A stretch of 64,000 bases of DNA, taken from assembly GCA_902598735.1 (NCBI GenBank), contig CACKCM010000002.1, forward strand, positions 1 to 64,000, written 5' to 3'. Shown one piece after another: positions 14,163 to 40,704 of the stretch. The position numbers were made by a program, and so were the translations under genes. Source of the DNA: an uncultured Pelagibacteraceae bacterium (GTDB lineage: Bacteria > Pseudomonadota > Alphaproteobacteria > Pelagibacterales > Pelagibacteraceae). How positions within the stretch are numbered: the stretch's first letter is position 1; each line of letters begins with the position of its first letter. The notes beneath the pieces were generated by a model, which saw only the letters and a program-made list of their open reading frames with translations, did no database searches and was not told the origin of the DNA.

Positions 14163-14288
14163 TCACCATAATGGGTAAATATCGTCTGTATCATCTTTTT
14201 TTTCAATATTTTTTTTTTTTGATTTTGACTTAAATATATTTAAGTAAAATAACTTTAATTTATAAAGGAATATTTTTATTAAATTCAT
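14163..14288 (-). CDS. Small ORF, 41 residues, function unknown
   Basis: A frame with ATG at 14288 and TGA at 14163-14165 fills most of the space between tRNA-Glu and the SGNH hydrolase gene. It encodes a hydrophobic/aromatic N-terminal third (MNLIKIFLYKLKLFYLN), a Lys/Ser-rich middle and an acidic end DDTDDIYPLW. The segregated composition and the Pro-Leu-Trp terminus look protein-like, not random AT-rich DNA. No family is recognised and the evidence is composition and position only. Confidence 0.45.
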   Translation of the reverse strand: MNLIKIFLYKLKLFYLNIFKSKSKKKNIEKKDDTDDIYPLW

Positions 14289-14310
14289 AACATTTAAAAT
14301 TTACAAATTT

Positions 14311-14385
14311 TGGCGGTCCCAAGGGGAATCGAACCCCTCTTTGTTGGATGAAAACCAACTGTCCTAACCGATAGACGATGGGACC
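14311..14385 (-). tRNA. tRNA-Glu (anticodon UUC)
   Basis: A 75-base tRNA with encoded CCA (14311-14313). The acceptor stem GGTCCCA pairs with TGGGACC, followed by discriminator G. The anticodon stem GTTGG/CCAAC encloses loop TTTTCAT with anticodon TTC, and the T arm contains GGGGTTCGATTCCCC. The 5' 22 bases (14364-14385) are also the last codons of recJ, so the tRNA must be processed out of a transcript that reads through that gene or starts within it. Confidence 0.97.
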
Positions 14386-16151
14386 ACATTTTTGAGTGTC
14401 TTATTAACAGAAATATCATCGATAATAAACTCCACATTTGATTGCCCTTGCCACTCGTTTAAGGATAATTTTCCAGCAATATTAAATAATTTATTATCTT
14501 TTTTAAGCAAATATGCTCCAATTTCATTTTCTACACAGTTAAATGCTATTGATTTGACTGTTGTTCCGTCTAATCCAACTAAAACTGATTTTATGTGTTT
14601 ATCCTTAACAATCTTATTATTAACAGATTTCATATTTTCTAAAACGAACTTTGGTTCTGGATTACCAGAACCAAAAGGGGCAAGTGTATTGACTTTATTA
14701 AAGAATTGGATGTTCAAGGCAGTTGGAGCTATTACGCTGTCTAAATATAATGGCTTAATTTTTGTATTAATATTATTTAATTTCTCAAATCTTTTAAGAA
14801 TAAATTTTTTAAATTTTTCAATATTTTCATTTTTAATTGTAAATCCTCCCGCCATTTTGTGTCCTCCACCTTTAATTAAAATATTTTCTTGAACAGCAGA
14901 AATAATTACTGAACCAATATCAAAACCGTTAATTGATCGAGCTGATGCTTTACCGATGCCATTATTGTCTTCTGAAATTATTATTACTGGTTTATTAAAT
15001 ATATCTTTAATTCTAGACGCAACTATTCCAATTACACCTTCATGTAAATTTTTCCCATGAATGACCATTGCAGGATCATGTGCTTCGCCTCCTAAATTTT
15101 TCAAGATTTTATCCAAAACATCTTTTTCTAAAATTTGTCTCTCTTTATTGAAGTTATCTAGTTCAGAAGCTAACTTAAAAACATCTTTAGGGTTATTGCT
15201 AATTAATAAATTTGCTCCATGAGAAGACTTTCCTACTCTACCTCCAGCATTAATTCTTGGACCTAATAGATATCCAATGTGATAAACATTTGGTTTGCTT
15301 TGAATATTACAAATATCAAGTAACGTTTTTAATCCTAGATTTTTTTTTGATTTTAAAATTTTTAATCCTTGAGAGACAATTGCTCTATTTAAACCAACTA
15401 AAGGAACTACGTCACAAATAGTTCCTAATGCAACTAAATCCAAATATTCAAGTAAATTCGGCTCTGTTTGTTTTATTTTGTTGAACCATCCAGATTGCCT
15501 TAATTCTTTATTCAAAGAAATTAAAAACATAAAAACAACACCAGCAGCACACAGATATTTTAAATTAGATTTGTCGTCTAATCTGTTTGGATTTACTATT
15601 GAGTAAGCTTTAGGTAAATTTATTTCCGATTGGTGATGATCGAGGACTATCACATCAGTTTTGTAATTAGATGCGAAATTTATTGCATCAAAGGACAGCG
15701 TTCCACAATCTACAGTGAAAATCAATTTAGTTCCGTTATCTATTAATTTTTTGAAAGATTCAGCTGAAGGTCCATACCCTTCTTTTTTTCTATCTGGTAT
15801 ATAAATTTCATAAGAAACATTTATCGAATTAAAAAAATTTGCAAGTAATGCAGTTGCTGAAGCACCATCGACATCATAATCTCCAAAAATACCAATTTTA
15901 TGTTTTTTAGAAATTGCATGCATTGTTCTTTTTGCTGATTTTTGCATATCATTTATAATTTCAGGATTAGGCAGTAAATTCTTAATAGAAGGATTTAAAA
16001 AAGATTGAACATCCTCTTTTTTGATATTTCTAATTGATAAAAGCTTTGATGTTAATTCATCTAATGAATAGTTTTCTTTAAAAAAAATAATATCTTGTTC
16101 ATTATATTTCTTAAAAATCCAGTTTTTGTTACTTACTGAATTTGTAATCAT
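14364..16151 (-). CDS. recJ: Single-stranded-DNA-specific 5'-3' exonuclease RecJ
   Basis: A 595-residue DHH-family nuclease for recombination and mismatch repair. The DHH domain shows GIFGDYDVDGASATALL (motif I), IFTVDCGT, VIVLDHHQSE (DHH) and AAGVVFMFLI. The DHHA1 region has HEGVIGIVASRI and the GGGHKMAGGF motif (about residues 426-435), and a C-terminal OB-like domain follows. Length is normal (E. coli 577). The final residues NVVPSSIG and the TAG stop are read from inside the tRNA-Glu gene. The ATG overlaps the glpX stop by 4 bases. Confidence 0.95.
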   Translation of the reverse strand: MITNSVSNKNWIFKKYNEQDIIFFKENYSLDELTSKLLSIRNIKKEDVQSFLNPSIKNLLPNPEIINDMQKSAKRTMHAISKKHKIGIFGDYDVDGASATALLANFFNSINVSYEIYIPDRKKEGYGPSAESFKKLIDNGTKLIFTVDCGTLSFDAINFASNYKTDVIVLDHHQSEINLPKAYSIVNPNRLDDKSNLKYLCAAGVVFMFLISLNKELRQSGWFNKIKQTEPNLLEYLDLVALGTICDVVPLVGLNRAIVSQGLKILKSKKNLGLKTLLDICNIQSKPNVYHIGYLLGPRINAGGRVGKSSHGANLLISNNPKDVFKLASELDNFNKERQILEKDVLDKILKNLGGEAHDPAMVIHGKNLHEGVIGIVASRIKDIFNKPVIIISEDNNGIGKASARSINGFDIGSVIISAVQENILIKGGGHKMAGGFTIKNENIEKFKKFILKRFEKLNNINTKIKPLYLDSVIAPTALNIQFFNKVNTLAPFGSGNPEPKFVLENMKSVNNKIVKDKHIKSVLVGLDGTTVKSIAFNCVENEIGAYLLKKDNKLFNIAGKLSLNEWQGQSNVEFIIDDISVNKTLKNVVPSSIG

Positions 16152-17089
16152 TTATTGTATATATTTTTAATAATTTTGTTAATCTTTTTACTTTTATGTA
16201 ATGCAAAAGTTGTAACTTCATATTCATTTCCTAGGTCTTTAACACCCTTTGTTAAATCTCCATCTGTTACACCTGTTGCGCAGAATATTACATCTCCTTT
16301 TACCATATCTTCTATATTATATTTCTTTTTAAAATCAGTAACACCAAGTTTTTTTGCCCTAATTTTTTCTTCTTCATTTAAAACTAATCGTCCTTGTATC
16401 TGGCCTCCAAAACAAGATAATGCTGATGCTGCTAAAACTCCCTCTGGACCTCCACCTGTGCTGTAGTATATGTCATTTTTTGGTTTCTCTCCTATTACAC
16501 TTAAAACTCCAGCTATATCACCATCTGTTATGAAGTTTATAGTAACTCCTAATTTGTTCATTATATTAACAATCTCGTCATGTCTTGCTCTTTTCATAAC
16601 ACATGCATTTATTTGTGAAGTTTTTTTATTTTTTGCCTCAGCTAGAATTCTAATATTTTTTTCAACTCCATTATCAATATCTAACAAATTTTTAGGTAAA
16701 TTTGATCCAATTGCTATTTTTTCCATGTAAGAGTCAGGTGCTGATAATAATTCGCCTTTTTTTGCAACTGCAATAACAGAAAAAGCATTCGGTTCGTTGT
16801 TTGCTGTAAATTTTGTTCCCTCTAATGGATCAACTGCTATATCAAACTTTGGTCCATTTAATGTGCCTAATCTTTCACCAATATACAACATTGGAGCTTC
16901 ATCCATTTCGCCTTCTCCGATAACAATTGTTCCTTCCATATTAATTTTATTTAATTCTCTTCTCATAGGATCAACAGCTCCTTTATCAGCAGCAATTTTA
17001 TTTTTTTTACCTATAAATTTTGATGCACCAATTGCTGCGTGTTCAGTGGCTTTAATGAATAGATTTAAAAATTTTTGATCTATTGACAT
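16148..17089 (-). CDS. glpX: Fructose-1,6-bisphosphatase class II
   Basis: A 313-residue GlpX-type phosphatase that removes the 1-phosphate of fructose-1,6-bisphosphate (gluconeogenesis). Metal and phosphate ligands are visible in DKGAVDPMRREL, GEGEMDEAPMLYIGE and AVDPLEGTKFTA. YSTGGGPEGVLAA and FCATGVTDGDL are further family marks. It lacks any class I FBPase signature. The gene abuts hom upstream without any spacer and overlaps recJ downstream by 4 bases, so argC-lipoprotein-hom-glpX-recJ behaves as one run. Confidence 0.95.
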   Translation of the reverse strand: MSIDQKFLNLFIKATEHAAIGASKFIGKKNKIAADKGAVDPMRRELNKINMEGTIVIGEGEMDEAPMLYIGERLGTLNGPKFDIAVDPLEGTKFTANNEPNAFSVIAVAKKGELLSAPDSYMEKIAIGSNLPKNLLDIDNGVEKNIRILAEAKNKKTSQINACVMKRARHDEIVNIMNKLGVTINFITDGDIAGVLSVIGEKPKNDIYYSTGGGPEGVLAASALSCFGGQIQGRLVLNEEEKIRAKKLGVTDFKKKYNIEDMVKGDVIFCATGVTDGDLTKGVKDLGNEYEVTTFALHKSKKINKIIKNIYNK

Positions 17090-18376
17090 TTATTCATCAT
17101 TTATTCTTATTAATTTAGATCTTTTTTTTACGTAAGATTTTCTATTGATAGTCTGGATAATTTTATTTAATGATTTATCTTTTGTTGGATGAGTTATAAT
17201 TATAATTGAGGAAGATCTTTTATTTTTATTTGGATCTTGAACTAATCTTTTAATAGAAACCCTATTTCTTGAAAAAACTTGAGTGATATTTGACAAAACG
17301 CCAGGTTTATCAATTACATTAAATCTGAAATACGCAGAGAAAGAACGTTCTGATATTTGTTTAAAATTTAATTTTTTTCTTTCTTTATTAGATATTGAAA
17401 AAGGAAATTTAATATTACCTCTTAAAATTGATGAGATATCAGAAATTAGCGCAGAGGTTGTTGCTGCAGGACCTGCTCCTTCACCTTGTATTATGTTCTG
17501 ACCAACTGGGTTTCCGTCAATAATAACAGCGTTCAAAACTCCATCAATACTTGCTACATTTGAGCTATTTCTTATTAATGTTGGGTGAACTCTTTGGAAA
17601 ATATTTTTCCCTATTAGTTCTGCATAACCAAGTAATTTTATCTTGTAACCAAGTCTATTTGCATAATTTATATCATCCTTATCTATATCTTTTATACCTT
17701 CAACATGGATATTGTCGTTCAAAAATGAATTAAAACATAGTGATGACAAAATTTTTAATTTAGCGGCAACATCTTCACCATTTAGATCTGAAGTTGGATT
17801 TGATTCTGCGTATCCTAATTTTTGAGCATTTTGCAAAACTTCTTTAAATGATTTATTTTCTTTATCCATTGACGAAAGTATATAATTTGAAGTTCCATTA
17901 AAAATTCCAAAGACTTTGTTAATTTTATTTGCTATCAAACCTTCTTTTAAAGATCTAATGATAGGCACTCCTCCACACACAGAGGCTTCAAATTCTAAGT
18001 TCACTCTATTCTTTTCTGCAATTTTTGATAGTTGATCACCGTATTTAGCAATCAAAGCCTTATTTGCTGTTACCACGTGCTTTTTATTTTTAAGTGCAGC
18101 AAATACTAGCTTTTTTGCAGCCCCTTCAGAACCTCCAATGAGCTCTACAATTAAATCTATTTCTTTTTTTTTTGTAGCATCTAAATAATTTGATAACCAT
18201 TTTTTTTTATTAAATTGAATTATTCTTTTTTTTTTTCTATTTCTTGCTGAAACATAAAGTACATTTGGTATACAATTATTTTTTTTTGCTAAAATAAATT
18301 TATTTTTATTTAAGTATTTGTAAAGATAACATCCAATGTTACCAAGGCCTATAATTGCTATATTTAACTTTTTCAT
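17090..18376 (-). CDS. hom: Homoserine dehydrogenase
   Basis: A 428-residue NAD(P)-dependent enzyme reducing aspartate semialdehyde to homoserine for threonine and methionine synthesis. The Rossmann start is NIAIIGLGNIGCYLY; VTANKALIAKYG, FEASVCGGVPIIRSL, FGIFNGTSNYILSSM, AQKLGYAESNPTSDLNGEDVAAKL and GEGAGPAATTSALISDI are all present. The C-terminal 80 residues form an ACT domain (RFNVIDKPGVLSNI), the usual threonine-sensing region. The ATG at 18376 is preferred, 2 bases after the preceding stop; an in-frame GTG at 18382 would add two residues. Confidence 0.95.
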   Translation of the reverse strand: MKKLNIAIIGLGNIGCYLYKYLNKNKFILAKKNNCIPNVLYVSARNRKKKRIIQFNKKKWLSNYLDATKKKEIDLIVELIGGSEGAAKKLVFAALKNKKHVVTANKALIAKYGDQLSKIAEKNRVNLEFEASVCGGVPIIRSLKEGLIANKINKVFGIFNGTSNYILSSMDKENKSFKEVLQNAQKLGYAESNPTSDLNGEDVAAKLKILSSLCFNSFLNDNIHVEGIKDIDKDDINYANRLGYKIKLLGYAELIGKNIFQRVHPTLIRNSSNVASIDGVLNAVIIDGNPVGQNIIQGEGAGPAATTSALISDISSILRGNIKFPFSISNKERKKLNFKQISERSFSAYFRFNVIDKPGVLSNITQVFSRNRVSIKRLVQDPNKNKRSSSIIIITHPTKDKSLNKIIQTINRKSYVKKRSKLIRINDE

Positions 18377-18378
18377 TT

Positions 18379-18909
18379 TCACTGTCTGGTTGTTATATCA
18401 GGAAACTTTTTCTTTTTTCCCTCATTAATAAGATATTTAGTAATTTCTTCAATACTACATTTTTGTATCTTTGTACAAATATCATTTATTATAATCTTTT
18501 TTTTATTATTGTTTTTTTTAACTATCTTTTCTTTAATGTCATTTACATCTGATTTTTGTTTTTCAAGATTTTTATCTATTCTTGATTTAGATTTTATTTT
18601 GATATCTTTTTTGATGTTTTTTATTTCATTTCTAGATAACACTCTTATCTTATCGTTTGTCTCTTTTTTCTTAATAACTTTAATATTTTCTTTATCATTT
18701 TTATTTTGCAAATTAAGCTGGACTAAATCTATATCTTTGTCATTTTTTTCCTTAATAATTTTTACTTCAATTGATAAATTTTCTTTAAAATAAATTTCCG
18801 CCTCATCTTTATTGACGCAAACATGATCTCCACAAATCAATACTGCTTTAGGTTTATTTGAGCAAGATTCTAAGATAATTAAAAGGCATAGTATTAAAAA
18901 AAATTTCAT
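18379..18909 (-). CDS. Putative lipoprotein, Lys-rich, unknown function
   Basis: A 176-residue protein with a lipoprotein signal, MKFFLILCLLIILESCSN, with lipobox LESC (Cys at 16). The mature part opens with a Cys-containing segment (CGDHVCVNKDEAEIYFKENLSIEV), followed by a long Lys/Asp/Glu/Asn-rich linker of likely extended or coiled structure (about residues 55-135) and a short C-terminal segment with CTKIQKCS. The family is not recognised. It is probably periplasm-facing. The ATG overlaps the argC stop (ATGA) and the gene is followed closely by hom. Confidence 0.7.
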   Translation of the reverse strand: MKFFLILCLLIILESCSNKPKAVLICGDHVCVNKDEAEIYFKENLSIEVKIIKEKNDKDIDLVQLNLQNKNDKENIKVIKKKETNDKIRVLSRNEIKNIKKDIKIKSKSRIDKNLEKQKSDVNDIKEKIVKKNNNKKKIIINDICTKIQKCSIEEITKYLINEGKKKKFPDITTRQ

Positions 18910-40234: not shown

Positions 40235-40704
40235 TTATTATTTCTACTCATCAATCTTGCTCTTTCTCTATTCCAGTCTCTCTTTTTCTTTACTTGTCTT
40301 TTATCATAAAGTTTTTTTCCTTTTGCAACGGCAATTTCAATTTTAACTTTTCCTTTAAAGAAATACATTTTAGTTGGAATAATAGTCAACCCTTCCTGAT
40401 TTATTCTTCCAATCAACTTGTTAATTTCTCGTCTTTTTAAAAGAAGTTTTCTTTCACCTTTAGGATTATGGTTGTTATACGATGATTGTCTGTAAAGCGG
40501 GATATGAGAATTAATTAAAAATAATTCTCCGTTGTTGTCTATAGCGTATGAGTCTGCAATGCTTCCTTTGCCCTCTCTTAGCGATTTGACTTCTGATCCT
40601 TTTAAGGAAATACCTGCCTCTAAAGTTTCTAAAAAAAAATAATTAAAACTAGCTTTTCTATTTAAACAAATTATTTTTCTTCCAGGGGCTATATTTTGTT
40701 TCAT
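40231..40704 (-). CDS. smpB: SsrA-binding protein SmpB
   Basis: A 157-residue partner of tmRNA in ribosome rescue. Clear stretches are [60 protein letters not shown] and the basic tail [24 protein letters not shown]. The dapA stop overlaps its start by one base, in the common dapA-smpB order of alphaproteobacteria. The tmRNA gene itself is not in the window. Confidence 0.97.

Follow-up and report, generated by a model that had tools for sequence, protein, structure and literature searches.

How can a protein-coding gene come to end within a tRNA, and what becomes of the stop codon of the one, and of the upstream control sequence of the other, when the space between them has gone? The question is raised by recJ of an uncultured member of the Pelagibacteraceae, whose nearest named relatives are likewise uncultured Pelagibacteraceae of the SAR11 group, on contig CACKCM010000002.1 of assembly GCA_902598735.1; the window, that is, the whole stretch of DNA that was analysed, comprises its first 64,000 nucleotides. 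Four genes lie there in one direction on the minus strand, packed end to end:

17090..18382, minus strand: homoserine dehydrogenase gene, directly 5' of glpX and on the same strand.
16148..17089, minus strand: glpX, class II fructose-bisphosphatase, with a 4-base overlap with the start of recJ.
16151..14364, minus strand: recJ, 595 aa, with its TAG stop at 14366..14364.
14385..14311, minus strand: tRNA-Glu (anticodon TTC/UUC), CCA encoded, found by ARAGORN and Rfam.

The identities of the two genes at issue are secure. The 595-residue product matches the RecJ equivalog TIGR00644 (531 bits against a cut-off of 397) and carries the three Pfam domains DHH, DHHA1 and RecJ_OB, all over cut-off, the last of which ends at residue 579. 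The tRNA gene is intact, scores 59 bits and thus above cut-off against the Rfam tRNA model RF00005 in agreement with ARAGORN, has a TTC anticodon, and is the sole tRNA-Glu found in its genome, the assembly of which is 84% complete. Between it and a GDSL-lipase-like gene there is a small minus-strand ORF of some 41 codons ending ...DIYPLW (approximately 14164-14292, by eye).

The bases common to recJ and tRNA-Glu are 14364-14385, 22 nucleotides on the same strand. The first-pass annotation had described these as the last seven codons of recJ plus its TAG; the overlap itself is as it stated, but the codon count is not, as the shared bases comprise the third base of a GTG, six sense codons (GTC CCA TCG TCT ATC GGT) and then the TAG, which forms bases 20-22 of the tRNA, in the D-arm. 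Only the recJ frame meets a stop within the tRNA, the other two being open across all 75 bases, and a frame entering from upstream can therefore end early only at that TAG. Among the 29 distinct tRNA loci of this genome, recJ provides the one instance of a same-strand ORF of at least 80 aa that enters a tRNA at its 5' end. At tRNA-His of the same genome (L007), the longest reading of a downstream 466-aa ORF begins 15 bases inside the tRNA, which is probably a start called too early. A search of the open-licence literature found no paper on an overlap between a bacterial recJ and a tRNA.

Whether related genomes keep the overlap had been put forward as a check, and in two genera most do. In the genus of the window's genome (g1) a RecJ match was present in 121 of 169 genomes and in none of the other 48, most of the assemblies being partial; each of the 121 contributes one recJ locus, and 120 could be classified, in the one excluded, recJ ends within the tRNA where the contig stops. 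The 22-base overlap occurs in 104 of the 120. Three loci overlap the tRNA by one base, its first G completing a TAG, eight stop exactly at the tRNA (seven with TAA, one with TGA), four stop 5-11 bases short of it, and in one (G021) an insert of about 0.9 kb separates the two genes. In a second genus (g138) the 22-base overlap is found in 8 of 12 loci and the one-base overlap in the other 4. Given that 104 of 120 separate loci agree, a sequencing or assembly artefact is ruled out, and the ending of recJ inside tRNA-Glu is a real, conserved and derived overlap.

The remainder of the order mostly retains a spacer of 36-78 bases before tRNA-Glu. Within the family, 40 recJ loci from genera other than g1 were examined, g138 included; three genera represented by one locus each (g144, g142 and g143) have gaps of 3, 11 and 14 bases and constitute intermediates, whereas the spacer measures 47-78 bases in g6 (6 loci), g145 (5) and g141 (2), and 36-50 bases in 9 of the 10 loci of g140, a sample taken from a larger set of recJ matches. 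The tenth g140 locus has no tRNA-Glu beside recJ, and neither of the two g139 loci adjoins one. Across the loci of g6, g145, g141 and g140 that do have the tRNA, the spacer is 36-78 bases long in 22 of 22, and most carry TTGATT or TTGATA upstream (by eye). In a second family (f2) the spacer is 45-49 bases in 26 of 26 loci, and 45-47 bases in a separate set of 12 loci that has four genomes in common with the first. Further afield, among the 29 best-matching other loci of a class sample, which represents the closest matches only, tRNA-Glu lies downstream on the same strand in 17, at 36-1295 bases. In g140, the largest genus group, recJ is missing or has diverged strongly (31-39% identity) though many of the genomes are more than 90% complete, and RecJ may possibly have been lost or replaced there.

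On a RecJ tree of 96 rows, from which the C-terminal residues were left out, the overlap must have been gained or lost at least nine times in all among the 94 rows that have tRNA-Glu downstream. With f2 as the outgroup, the simplest reading would be one gain before the split of g1 and g138, followed by at least eight losses, on a tree that was built quickly, has one measure of support and leaves many inner branches open, and that recombination could mislead. Judged from these comparisons, the overlap has its origin in loss of the spacer in the streamlined SAR11 genomes.

If the spacer was lost, whatever control sequence it held for the tRNA should have had to go elsewhere, and the 3' end of recJ contains a candidate:

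14400..14444, minus strand: recJ stretch from -59 to -15 relative to the tRNA (approximately codons 570-584), under strong synonymous-site constraint; proposed embedded tRNA-Glu control element.
14401-14431, minus strand: core of the block, AGTTTATTAT..TCTGTTAWTAA.

Constraint was measured in 10-codon windows by comparing how often sequences that share an amino acid also share its codon with the expectation from codon usage, on 116 of the 120 g1 coding sequences (four short ones were dropped) thinned to 58 representatives under 85% identity. Codons 573-582 show an agreement of 0.89 against 0.53 expected (z=4.95), the highest of 586 windows once those touching the tRNA or the linker are set aside, and the top-scoring windows all lie at the 3' end of the gene. 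Over 50 g1 representatives hardly any variation is seen at -47 to -39 and -26 to -16, and more in the part between them. The same stretch is constrained in g138 (z=4.1; 12 loci, 10 representatives), codons 571-583 being nearly fixed at synonymous sites in both genera, whereas in the spacer-keeping groups (f2, g6 with g145 and g141, and g140) the reported 3'-end windows range from z -1.9 to 1.9, except that z reached 2.4 in a single f2 window close to the 3' end. Selection for the overlap itself through avoidance of stop codons was also considered; it is not separable from the conservation of an A-run at -8 to -4, since that run, whose bases would need to change, is conserved as well.

The position of the block relative to the tRNA is similarly rigid. 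The pair of core motifs keeps its inner distance in 118 of 120 g1 loci, and the core lies 15 bases from the tRNA in 101 of the 104 overlapping loci (one has 18, and two have a substitution in the motif), although in most of these the frame of recJ also sets the distance to the tRNA. In all 16 other g1 loci, including those where recJ stops before the tRNA, the distance is 13-16; stops regained at the tRNA boundary go with a linker that is one base longer (distance 16, 8/8) or of unchanged length (distance 15, 3/3). Excess synonymous conservation and a fixed distance to the downstream gene, the two marks sought for an intragenic cis element, are thus both present. In G021 a non-coding copy of the block, about 50 bases long and nearly identical to that of relatives, adjoins the tRNA outside recJ, and the sequence upstream of the copy is unlike recJ; it may have arisen recently, as a direct repeat created by the insertion. 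The same locus (L047) carries an inserted ORF of about 250 codons within the recJ 3' end, sialic-acid-synthase-like by eye, with some 30 bases of the recJ tail directly repeated on either side. From the comparisons above, loss of the spacer appears to have brought an upstream control element of the tRNA inside recJ, which is our main point and had no place in the first-pass annotation; the constrained block is probably a tRNA-Glu element, which may act in either direction.

The likeliest reading of the block is that it would serve as the promoter of tRNA-Glu. The spacers of the outgroups contain TTGATT or TTGATA together with an AT-rich -10 at a similar distance. A canonical sense promoter was sought and rejected, the scan between the last codons of recJ and the tRNA having found none; with an approximate E. 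coli matrix, which makes for a weak test, the sense hexamers of the overlapping clade score below synonymous shuffles (200 of 200 shuffles equal or exceed the observed score) and do not rise above the coding background as those of an intragenic sigma-70 promoter would. The passages of PMC5069720 covered here give no start site for tRNA-Glu. On the opposite strand, the same approximate scan gives a rather different picture:

14404..14431, plus strand: antisense promoter-like TTAACA-16-TAAACT, a rival reading of the same block.

With 9 of 12 matches in the promoter scan, a score of 7.63 against 6.34 for synonymous shuffles (0 of 200 reach the observed value), and both hexamers coinciding with the two most frozen stretches, this site could be taken to make an RNA against recJ, unrelated to the tRNA. 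Many sites were tried, however, and the best one varies among representatives, the form given being the commonest at 12 of 41. Furthermore, the constraint is found only in lineages without a spacer, and the distance from block to tRNA stays at 13-16 where recJ stops earlier, a fixity that favours a role for the tRNA over an antisense one; we consider the antisense reading improbable. It might also be supposed that the block is no promoter at all and acts in RNA, as a processing or protein-binding site in a recJ-tRNA precursor, and the non-canonical sense hexamers would suit such a role. Folding of three loci nevertheless gave a leader that is only weakly structured (-3.1 to -5.6 kcal/mol) and left the tRNA fold unchanged, and RNase P is not known to require such a leader; an RNA-level signal thus seems very improbable. 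Pairing between leader and tRNA was likewise discarded, as the tRNA stayed intact on folding in the three loci tried.

The putative promoter bears directly on the model that accompanied the original observation, in which tRNA-Glu comes mainly from a hom-glpX-recJ transcript, a recJ stop is spent on every mature tRNA, RecJ synthesis competes with tRNA maturation, and tmRNA clears the products. Part of this follows from the arrangement itself, for with the stop inside the tRNA a stop-bearing recJ mRNA always carries tRNA sequence, and an RNase P cut necessarily takes the stop off any transcript that reads through in full. Such a cut would cost RecJ the residues VPSSIG, whose identity the tRNA dictates and which belong to none of the RecJ domains. 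The means for rescue that the model invoked are also encoded: alpha-tmRNA is found with the alpha two-piece model (220 bits), the classical tmRNA model RF00023 giving no match over cut-off, and its partner lies in the window:

40246..40671, minus strand: smpB, the tmRNA partner, which bears on non-stop mRNA rescue.

Together with the shared strand, the end-to-end packing that leaves no room for a terminator, and the missing canonical sense promoter, these genes speak for the model, and RNase P may compete with translation of RecJ. The spacer of the spacer-keeping relatives is, on the other hand, promoter-like, and the synonymous constraint arises together with spacer loss; these comparisons speak for a cis element of the tRNA's own within recJ, which comes close to the separate promoter that the first-pass annotation had itself named as incompatible with its model. 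That at least eight lineages lost the overlap argues, moreover, against a coupling of recJ and tRNA that is essential. Repeated loss, and a RecJ tail that extends beyond the OB domain, suggest that the cost is low and that no essential switch is involved. In sum, we regard the shared-transcript model as unlikely.

A rather probable explanation, in our estimation, is that spacer loss moved a tRNA-Glu element, most likely a promoter, into recJ, which in consequence ends at the D-arm TAG, as a tolerated side-effect of compaction and no dedicated switch. The common ancestor of two SAR11 genera would have lost a recJ/tRNA-Glu spacer of about 47 bases, whereupon the upstream control element of the tRNA would have landed in the last RecJ codons (about 571-584), constraining their synonymous sites. 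With its old stop gone, recJ would read into the tRNA as far as the TAG of the conserved D-arm, its frame being the only one to meet a stop there. The tRNA would probably be made mostly from the embedded promoter, and recJ mRNA would have to enter the tRNA; copies spanning the whole of it could be cut by RNase P, yielding a recJ mRNA without a stop, which would be subject to decay or to tmRNA rescue. A stronger version, which we hold to be improbable, would see three layers in a 67-base stretch (the final strand of RecJ with its tail, a non-canonical promoter of the only known tRNA-Glu, and the 5' part of the tRNA that ends recJ), with RecJ translation and tRNA-Glu maturation mutually exclusive per shared transcript and the output of a repair exonuclease thereby tied to the rate of tRNA-Glu processing.

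The arrangement resembles several known systems and differs from each. In animal mitochondria, genes overlap and are punctuated by tRNAs, cleavage by RNase P or Z sets the ends of the mRNAs, and stops are restored by polyadenylation; there, as here, a frame enters the following same-strand tRNA, and excision removes all or part of the stop. In SAR11, however, the cut is preceded by AC, AA, AT or a similar pair of bases in 104 of 104 overlapping g1 loci and never by TA, so that an added A cannot restore TAA, and completion of the mitochondrial type, from a T or TA left at the cut, was not found in these loci; only in the one-base overlaps (3 of 3 in g1) is TA left, from which an added A could restore TAA. 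A separate control element, in addition, seems to lie within the SAR11 frame. Streamlined SAR11 genomes with overlapping genes and short spacers were reportedly described by Giovannoni in 2005, and neighbours without a spacer are in keeping with such packing, but the partner of recJ is a single-copy tRNA whose upstream element had, it appears, to enter coding sequence. In mRNA-tRNA transcripts of the E. coli secG-leuU type, processed by RNase P or RNase E, the tRNA likewise lies downstream of a coding gene, here possibly co-transcribed, but the stop codon precedes the tRNA, whereas that of recJ is inside it. Intragenic promoters with synonymous constraint are also known, and the putative promoter of a downstream gene inside an upstream coding sequence would be of this kind; what differs is that its origin by spacer loss is traceable across genera, along with the move of the stop codon into the tRNA.

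The tRNA-Glu locus of some related genomes has a history of another kind. In G070:C12, G134:C2, G157:C12 and G007:C4, for example, the 3' part of tRNA-Glu, beginning at bases 33-41 and running to base 75, recurs some 0.8-11 kb downstream of the complete gene, with as many as four such copies per genome. These are likely attachment-site repeats of islands that have integrated at tRNA-Glu, some of them in tandem; the window's genome has no partial 3' copies.

Gene finders often forbid or trim overlaps between coding sequences and tRNAs, and recJ with its tRNA-Glu is a warning for them. The related genomes in which recJ stops before, at or inside the tRNA provide a natural series on the cost of a stop codon within a processed RNA. 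More broadly, genome streamlining can pass the point of zero spacer, with a protein gene ending on a stop codon supplied by a tRNA; the tRNA, in return, seems to take regulatory DNA from the protein gene.
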